This document shows positions 47,718 to 50,660 of a stretch of DNA of 64,000 nt, piece by piece. Position numbers and translations under genes: made by a program. The notes under the pieces are model-generated. The model saw only the letters and a list, made by a program, of their open reading frames with translations. It did no database searches and was not told the origin of the DNA. This DNA comes from Planctomycetaceae bacterium (GTDB taxonomy: Bacteria > Planctomycetota > Planctomycetia > Planctomycetales > Planctomycetaceae): contig JAKFWC010000023.1 of the NCBI GenBank assembly GCA_021732975.1, forward strand, positions 62,001 to 126,000. The letters are read 5' to 3'. How positions within the stretch are numbered: position 1 is the stretch's first letter; each line of letters begins with the position of its first letter.

Positions 47718-50660
47718 CTACTTCAGCGTCTCCAGATAATCCAGCAACTCCCCCAGTTCCGCGCGCGTCACCCGTTGATGCAACCCCTGCGGCATCACAG
47801 ACACATTCGACGGCGTCCGTTCTTCAATGTCCTTGCGCGGAATCTTCGTGACGTTCCCCTGAACGTCGCCGAGTTCGACATCGCCGCCGCCGTTTTCGGT
47901 GACGATGATTCCGCTGTGCGTTTTGCCGTCGACCGTGGAAATCGTCCACGTCAAAAACTGCGGCGATATTTCCTTCGACGGTTCGAGAATCGAGCCGAGC
48001 AGCTTCTCGCGGTTCATCGTCCGGGCGATGACCGACAAATCCGGCCCGACATTCCCGCCGCGGCCGTTGACCGTGTGGCACTTGAAGCACAGCGGGCCTT
48101 GATGGTGGTAGAAGACGCGGCGACCGCGGTCGGGCGAAGGCTGAGAGCTAAGGGCTAAGGGCTGAGGGTCGGACGCAGACAACGACGACTTTCCTTCAAG
48201 CGCAAGATCGAACGCTTCCCGCAGTTCACTTCCCCCGCTTGCGGTTTCGCGCCCCGCGCGGAGCGCTTCACCGATCTTCGACCCGGGCGTTCCTCTCCCC
48301 CGTAGCGCGCGAATGGCTTCCAGTTGACACTGCGAAGCATCCGTGGGCGCGACGCGAAACCGCAAGCGGTTGTTGACGGCGTCGAGCAACAATTGTTCAA
48401 CATTCGCGGGCAACGGTTGATCGTGCGGCGTTGCGCACAAACCGGCGATGGCGTCCAGCCGCAACGATGTCTCCGCGTTCTCATCCGCGGCGATTTCCAG
48501 CAGCAGCGGGATGCCGTCGGCTCGCCCCGATTGCTGCAGCGTCCGCACGGCCTGCGTTTTCAGCCCGGCGTCGCCCGACTTCGCGAACTCCAGCAGCAGT
48601 TTCGTCGACAACTCCGCGGTGCTCGCCGGCACCATCTGCAACGCCATCGCCCGCAACGCCGCCGGCCGCTTGTCATCCGCCACAATCTTCATCAACTGCG
48701 TCACCGGCGGCGTTTTCTCAAACTCCGCTGGCGGGACGCCGTCAAGAAGGGAGAGCGTTGCAAGACACGGCATCAACAAATCCGGCGAAAGCTTTTCATC
48801 ATTGAGGATTGCTTCGATGCGAGGGCGAAGTTCTGTCAATTTCTCCTCACCCACCCATTGCACGGCGAGTCCCCGAACAACAGCCAGATCGTCAGCCAAT
48901 ACAGTGGTAATCCAATCGATATCACGAGGAAACAAATCACGTCCCACCAGTGCCCGTAGAATTGAACGTTTGATTCGCAGGTTGACCGAGTTTTGTTGCC
49001 AATGACTCAGTAGTTCTAACAAACGATTTCTATCAAGCTTGCCGGGGGAAGTTAGTGCTGCCGTCGTAATCGATGCTCTTGCCTCTGCTAACTGAAAAGG
49101 GTCGATGTTTCCCGACTTGGACAAAGCAACGATTGAGCTCGCCATATCCAAGAAGGAGTCAAAGGATAAAGGTTTAGAGTTCGATACCAACGACGCCGCA
49201 GAATTAGTTTCAAATTCCATCCGTGCATATTTAGGATGGGCCGTCTGATCGACAAGCCGATTTTGCATGTCATTTGGATCAAGCCGATTCATCAATCCAA
49301 CACGCCATGCCATACGGCGGACATCGAGACGCGGTTCTTTCAATTTCTCTTCTAGTTCTTGAAGATTGGAAACCTGGATCGTTGCGACATCGACGGGACT
49401 CTTCCTCGCAGCTTCCTTCGACGACAACCGCCACACGCGGCCTTTGCGGTGGAGCTTGTAGTCGCGGAGCACCCAGTCGCTGAAGTAGACGCTGCCGTCC
49501 GGGGCGAGGGCGAGGCCGACCGGGCGGAAGTTTTCGGCCCCCTGCACGATCGGTTTCGGCTTCGAGACGAACGACGCGCCTTTCGATTCCAGCACGAACT
49601 GGTCGATACGGTGGTCGCCCCAACTGCCGACGAGGAGCGTGCCGAGATAGTCCGCGGGGAAGCCGTCCGATTCGTAACAGAGGATGCCCGACGGGGCCTC
49701 GCCGGTGCCCGAGACCATCGGCAGCGTGCCGGGGATTTCGCCGTTCCACGCGGTGAAGGGATGGGTGCCGCGGCGGCCGTTGCGGAAGCGGTAACCATAG
49801 TCGCCGCCGGGAATGATGTGCAGCAACCGGCACGGCGGCCGGCTGTCGGGATCGTTGTCCACCGTGAAGAGGCGACCGAAGGCGTCGAAGCAACTCGCGT
49901 GCGGATTCCAGAACCCGGTCGCCCACTTCTCCAGCTTCGACCCGTCCGTCCGGCAACGATACATGTTGCCCCCTTCGCCGCCGCCGGAGAGCGTGATGCC
50001 GTCGCTGCCGATGATTTTGTAATCCGCCCCAAGGTTCTCACCGAAGCCGAAGTACATCCACCCGAGGGCGTCGAATGCAATCCCGGCGAGCCCGTTGTGC
50101 GGATAGTTGCCCGCGGTTTCGAGATGCACAAGCCGCGTCCGTTCATCGGCGACGAGGTCGTTGTTGGTATCCCGCAGGCGGACGATCTCGCCGCGCGTGG
50201 CGACGAAAACCGTGGGTTGAGGGTTTAGGGTCGAAGGTTGAGGGTCAGAGGGAGTCGACTTTTTCTGACCCTCAACCTTCGACCCTAAACCATCAACCTC
50301 CAACCACAGCGGTTGGACAGCCACGCTCATCGCAAACTTGAAACCATCCGCAAAGACGGTGGTCTTGTCCGCTTTGCCATCGCCATCGGTGTCATGCAAG
50401 ACGAGTAACCGGTCCGACGGATGGCCCGCGTAACCGTCCGGTGGAAAGTGCGTGTTGCTCTCGAGGACCCACACGCGGCCGAGGTGATCGACATCAATCC
50501 CCGTCGGCGTCACCAGCGTCGGATGCTCCGCGAACAGTTCCAACTTCAACCGCTCATCCAGCACGCGCGGCAACGCGCCAAGGGATGCATCCTGTGCAAA
50601 GCCGGGGGATGCAATGAGCGCGAGCAGTCCAATGGTGCGGATCATGTTGAAACAGAACAT
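47718..50660 (-). CDS. PVC-type heme-binding CxxCH membrane-bound dehydrogenase-like protein with HEAT-like region and C-terminal cytochrome c
   Basis: [65 protein letters not shown] ... [22 protein letters not shown]; contains in-frame repeats (see findings). Confidence 0.92.
   Translation of the reverse strand: [980 protein letters not shown]
48139..48172. repeat. ggctgagagctaagggctaagggctgagggtc repeat inside the CDS 47718..50660
   Basis: Similar to 63428-63451 (gggctgatggctaagagctaaggg), about 20/24. Confidence 0.65.
48235..48259 (+). repeat. ccgcttgcggtttcgcgccccgcgc repeat inside the CDS 47718..50660
   Basis: 25/25 identical to intergenic 740-764. Confidence 0.8.
48345..48369 (-). 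repeat. Inverted copy of the ccgcttgcggtttcgcg repeat inside the same CDS
   Basis: Reverse complement ccgcttgcggtttcgcgtcgcgccc vs 62547-62571 ccgcttgcggtttcgcgtcccgccc (24/25). Confidence 0.7.
50215..50298. repeat. 84-bp palindromic element inside the CDS 47718..50660
   Basis: 35-nt arms ggttgagggtttagggtcgaaggttgagggtcaga / tctgaccctcaaccttcgaccctaaaccatcaacc, one mismatch; length divisible by 3. Confidence 0.85.

Follow-up and report, generated by a model that had tools for sequence, protein, structure and literature searches.

The palindrome at positions 50215-50298 of the window, by which we mean the whole 64,000-nucleotide stretch of planctomycete DNA analyzed here, is a member of a palindromic repeat family that is dispersed in this planctomycete lineage. 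The reading that we favor, at a probability of roughly 85%, is that the family is non-autonomous and spreading, and that its copies are kept either between genes or in frame within protein loops, where they would be read as linkers.

A palindrome in frame within a cytochrome gene

The element was compared with its surroundings and with randomized sequence. As the first-pass annotation had it, there are two 35-nt arms with a single mismatch. Arm 1 at 50215-50249 (forward strand) pairs with arm 2 at 50264-50298 (minus strand) around a 14-nt center at 50250-50263 whose length and sequence vary in other copies. Arm 1 reads as five G-rich units of ~7 nt (GGTTGAG, GGTTTAG, GGTCGAA, GGTTGAG and GGTCAGA), of which the mRNA has the complement; arm 2 is the G-rich arm on the coding strand. 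By an alternative count the arms are 42 nt long with zero gap, and 38 of 42 pairs match. A chance palindrome is ruled out by the inverted-repeat score (32.5; the highest value is 11 among 262 other segments of this gene and again 11 among 200 codon shuffles), by the energy of the RNA fold (-69.9 kcal/mol, versus -31.6 +/- 3.9 kcal/mol for shuffles; z = -9.75) and by an 18-nt core that has four matches in the 64-kb window, all inside the element, where 0.05 is expected. No known structured RNA was recognized, the Rfam search of the element having returned nothing above the gathering threshold and only sub-threshold matches to miRNA hairpins.

The host gene (47718-50660, minus strand), identified from its ORF and NCBIfam matches, encodes a PVC-type heme-binding CxxCH protein of 980 residues, laid out as a DUF7133/TIGR02604 propeller domain, a HEAT-like middle and a TIGR02603 cytochrome domain (match at 5e-30). 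The TIGR02604 match (8.8e-79) is split in two stretches, the best of which begins at residue 151, right after the insert. The element is in frame on the minus strand, at about residues 121-149, and its translation is exactly the one first annotated, open through the 980-residue ORF. In the AlphaFold model, pLDDT is below 50 at residues 122-146, flanked by strands at 112-115 and 150-154, and the insert is predicted to sit in a disordered loop between these two strands. What stands of the original length estimate is the extent of the palindrome; an insertion of exactly 84 bp is unproven, because the native loop varies in length among homologues.

The same gene holds a second insertion, a single arm or half element of the GGCTAAG subfamily at 48139-48175 on the minus strand (G000:C1:110139-110175), in frame in the linker that precedes the cytochrome domain, where the model has a dip in pLDDT at residues 835-838. 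At this linker site a same-genus orthologue carries the other subfamily (SSDSQLSTLNSQPS). We infer that the window's PVC gene received family insertions at least twice.

A dispersed family in this and related genomes

The window belongs to a metagenome-derived assembly of 3.76 Mb that is 65% complete (G000). The first-pass annotation had staked its reading on the arm recurring elsewhere in the genome, and many other copies are there. They include several more complete palindromes as well as half elements, which share the element's ~7-nt arms and its inner end, GGGTCAGA. A second genome of the same genus, G001, holds more copies of the family, and through the insert at its orthologous PVC site a second subfamily (GGCTGAGGGCTAAGGGACAG) came to light, of which G000 and G001 both have additional copies. 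The unit is an array, 30-40 nt long, of G-rich ~7-nt repeats of the GGTTGAG, GGCTAAG or GAGTTGA type, and its inner end is purine-rich (GGGNCAGAAA). Palindromes of 80-110 nt consist of two units placed head-to-head, and single units are the half elements. Whole palindromes with GGGTCAGA...TCTGACCC inner ends are closely alike at many unrelated genome sites. Some arms, in only part of the copies, fit a G3-loop-G3 quadruplex pattern.

A covariance model (R1) built from 32 copies, some of which are among its own matches, finds at least ~29 palindromic loci in the window's genome and at least ~42 in G001, counts that are lower bounds as the census scored 150 of 425 and 150 of 828 candidates in the two genomes. 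At E <= 1e-6 the model matches at least 40 of 120 genomes of the taxonomic family, in 27 of 58 genera, with the two training genomes counted in. One locus of the window's genome (L157, G000:C14:67497-72160) has six family palindromes in ~4.7 kb with scant coding signal and looks like an element nest.

Copies between genes and the search for a possible mobilizer

Nineteen of 68 classified palindromes lie in frame inside genes, and the remaining ones are mostly between genes, many of them beginning within about one codon of a stop codon. The four least clear of the other copies were inspected and all lie between intact genes, and some inspected intergenic copies lend the neighboring gene a few C-terminal residues and its stop codon. 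No target-site duplication, as a MITE would be expected to leave, is evident at the listed element junctions, and no adjacent transposase was seen beside the copies. The consensus, which ends in GGTTGAG... or GGCTAAG..., lacks a GTAG or CGTC end tetranucleotide. A link to RAYT is unsupported: the RAYT loci of these genomes are flanked by other palindromes or none, not by this family, and the RAYT genes found adjoin GCCCGAAGCGCGAGCGCC-type or other repeats. RAYT might act in trans.

Other repeats share the window. REP-like palindromes of the AGCCCGAAGCGCGAGCGCCGGGT type occur at 10361-10427, 11235-11309, 13069-13157, 23905-23978 and 61358-61425, and in G000, G001 and G002 (L113, L114 and L123) palindromes of this type also neighbor RAYT (Y1_Tnp) genes, which suggests that the genus has a genuine REP/RAYT pair. 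Two long nested palindromes (50755-50962 and 52122-52332) flank an AraC/LacI-like gene (50956-52107) on both sides; their outer arms are GGCGCAAGAGGACGCAAAAGG-like and their inner arms CCACAGAAGGCACAGAGGACACAGAAAG-like, purine-rich and quasi-periodic like the 84-bp element but belonging to two other families. Another purine-rich repeat, a palindrome of the GAAATTCGAAATCTCAAATCCGAA type, lies at 35028-35179.

In-frame copies inside genes

Flanking coding potential was used for classing the copies, which gave 18 of the 68 as in frame; the nineteenth, in a 2,336-residue polyketide synthase (PKS) ORF of the window's genome, had missed the score cut only. Since the in-frame class was chosen by open frame, finding all 19 open is partly a consequence of that choice, and we do not use it as independent proof of translation. 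The host genes, named by profile match, are the window's PVC protein, another PVC protein, KdtA, methionine synthase (MetH, with two linker sites), the tRNA synthetases for isoleucine (IleRS) and asparagine (AsnRS), a PKS that holds copies at several sites and two other genes. A copy, genic or not, leaves on average only ~1.2 of 6 frames open, and random landing in a gene would therefore usually destroy it; the in-gene set may thus represent the survivors of a filter on frame and loop. The in-gene copies do not share one reading frame: inspection of the coding strands found all three phases relative to GGGACAG, with one of them predominating.

Comparison with structures and relatives places the inserts where proteins appear to tolerate them. 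They are absent from the solved homologues of AsnRS (6pqh) and KdtA (2xci), the aligned stretches of IleRS and MetH break or gap at the insert, and other inserts coincide with domain or alignment breaks; together with the predicted disordered loop of the PVC protein, this bears out the surface tolerance that the comparison with Rickettsia palindromic elements (RPEs) had implied. The IleRS site, which carries an insert in G001, is empty in G004, G005, G010, G011 and G012, and the AsnRS site is empty in G002, G005, G010 and G012. At the latter site G010 reads ...VTTLDLARLAQKQVEIDYSQDFFG, versus ~30 extra residues in G001, and in G002, of the same genus, the match leaves out query residues 196-221, its two pieces standing just 6 nt apart. 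In the IleRS loop of G000 the arms are no longer visible. The editing-domain region of IleRS in G001 (L195) and G000 (L196) also has ~100-135 extra residues, of unrelated sequence but at the same point, following ...GPFDDLPAQ and absent in the other genera compared.

Sites occupied in both G000 and G001 are those in KdtA, MetH (a and b), PKS (a and b) and one unnamed gene. Copies at these shared sites agree in length to within 3 nt and are 80-94% identical, whereas copies from different sites average 68%, so those at shared sites were most likely inherited. Most in-gene sites are common to the two sister species, and no fresh insertion was caught. Open frames and conservation suggest that the inserts are translated as part of their host proteins.

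The PVC loop across homologues

Across homologues the PVC loop has no insert, is short or carries quite different repeat-like peptides. Distant orthologues, with short loops or different repeats at this point, are without the segment, which agrees with its description as an inserted cassette; a conserved protein segment is ruled out, as homologues show no such conserved sequence at the loop. Between the sister species the flanks of the site are 84-87% identical. The elements of G000 and G001 there, both palindromic, belong to different subfamilies, and the window's element compares at 0.84 with the KdtA copy versus 0.71 with the G001 element at its own PVC site. Among species genomes, 6 of 39 resolvable PVC loci are strongly palindromic at the loop, three of the six sharing one GC-rich palindrome, and G003 has another palindrome at the site. 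For G003, G019 and G143, the insert at the PVC site matches in each case a repeat family dispersed through the genome that carries it, from which it follows that several independent repeat families entered one loop. To judge from these sequences, the PVC loop is a recurrent landing site for unrelated repeat palindromes.

Further variety was noted at this loop. At L254, L292 and L253 a third type of palindrome (GTGAGCGGCAAGGCGCTAGCCGCCGGTGATTC) lies in frame; it is GC-rich and REP-like, and its own genome, G143, has dispersed copies of it. Homologues P0010-P0116 have repeat-derived peptides in the same loop, such as SGGRQPPD..GGLRPPL, VGGRKSEVGGRK..NPQSAIRNPQSI, TRNSELGTRNS and NLKSEISNLKSEISNPR. 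The loop seems open to many different dispersed repeats.

Discussion

The sequences compared here point to a mobile element. New copies would arise at many places by a transposition-like spread, and most would survive between genes, often abutting a stop codon. A copy within a gene would survive only where the frame is kept, the reading is free of stops and the site is a surface loop or an interdomain linker. Such a copy would be read as a disordered segment of ~28-37 residues rich in Pro, Ser, Gln and Lys, and the captured segment may then drift at about the rate of its flanks, presumably in a neutral manner. In other genera, the first loop of the PVC gene has been filled independently by unrelated repeat families.

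The main rival to this reading is growth in place, in which the loop expanded by slippage of the G-rich ~7-nt repeats and then template switching (quasi-palindrome correction), with no mobile element involved. As the arms are themselves ~7-nt arrays, growth in place accounts for their structure and co-evolution, and it suits the PVC site, where the sister species differ in subfamily yet are both palindromic; template switching has also been discussed as a possible source of the coding palindromes of nematomorph mitochondria (PMC6649704). However, it leaves unexplained the similar whole palindromes, inner ends included, at many unrelated sites, and the PVC-site inserts in four genomes each match the dispersed family of their own genome. 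We regard growth in place as unlikely.

Selection for a function is also improbable. If the hairpin or the peptide were kept for a role in translation pausing, in mRNA stability or as an interdomain linker, the persistence of the KdtA, MetH and PKS copies in two species at (nearly) unchanged length could be understood, as could the strong hairpins predicted in the mRNA. Against such a role, the hosts are unrelated genes and the site is empty in most relatives, the identity of the elements is near that of the PVC flanks (84-87%), and the IleRS loop of G000 has lost its arms. We give very little credence to translational bypass or RNA removal, whereby ribosomes would skip the hairpin or splicing would remove it: such a stable hairpin inside an ORF invites the idea, but all in-gene copies have an open frame and a frame-keeping length, neither of which would be needed if the hairpin were skipped, an argument weakened by the selection for open frames. 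Palindromes are typical chimeras and the source is a metagenome assembly, but an assembly or fold-back artefact is scarcely credible given the same sites with the same lengths in the separate genome G001 and similar loop inserts in other assemblies.

The likeness to RPEs proposed in the first-pass annotation holds as an analogy of mode, for these too are multi-copy palindromes, in frame in unrelated genes and absent from orthologues. RPEs (Ogata 2000, 2002), as summarized in PMC10969869, comprise several palindrome families per genome, many in frame in unrelated metabolic and housekeeping genes, to which they add a few dozen residues. They are given there as ~150 bp long, whereas the planctomycete elements measure 80-110 bp. 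The planctomycete elements are also unlike RPEs in being in a different phylum with no shared sequence known, in having arms of G-rich ~7-nt units with all three arm phases in coding copies and in having apparently free-living hosts. Membership in the Rickettsia RPE families proper is not supported, as phylum and arm architecture differ, and RPEs appear to be the closest known system in mode.

Closest in phylogeny are intragenic REPs. O. terrae, a verrucomicrobium of the PVC superphylum, is where GTAG REPs are most abundant, and GTAG/CGTC REPs likewise form head-to-head dimers of units, mostly downstream of genes; some intragenic REPs are in frame, including in tRNA synthetases, and add 20-30 residues (PMC3733652). 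Unlike these REPs, the planctomycete family has no GTAG/CGTC tag in its consensus, no stem within a single unit and no RAYT beside it. Closest in arm design are the G-rich heptamer repeats, GGGAATC in Xanthomonas and GGGGA(C/T)T in Nostoc, which are also G-rich 7-nt arrays, mostly intergenic and near or overlapping stop codons (PMC4692102). These are single arrays, with few inverted pairs in Nostoc, whereas the planctomycete arrays are paired into a palindrome and their arm sequence differs from GGGAATC. The nematomorph mitochondrial palindromes are similarly long inverted repeats in protein-coding genes, but both of their arms encode conserved residues (PMC6649704), while the planctomycete palindrome is wholly added. 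PARCEL repeats share a palindromic coding sequence, but they are tandem 75-nt repeats in surface proteins (PMC2996958), and the planctomycete elements stand singly in enzymes of the housekeeping kind. For Wolbachia and Methanocaldococcus, too, PMC2996958 cites palindromic coding elements. No planctomycete account of such elements was found in the literature searched, most subscription papers being outside that search.

Apart from scattered cases among REPs, the known protein-coding palindromes are chiefly those of Rickettsia and Wolbachia. Here they are abundant in a large phylum of free-living type and lie inside essential enzymes. The combination of sister species and relatives with empty sites lets insertion, erosion and replacement be timed, offering a testable route from selfish DNA to protein sequence, and the family accounts for strange repetitive segments in predicted planctomycete proteins. 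A broader proposal, which we advance tentatively and think somewhat more doubtful than not, is that in planctomycetes a few loops of conserved proteins are occupied by many unrelated palindrome families in turn and that disordered linkers are largely domesticated palindromes. If true, a protein loop would be a standing dock for the serial exchange of genomic parasites.
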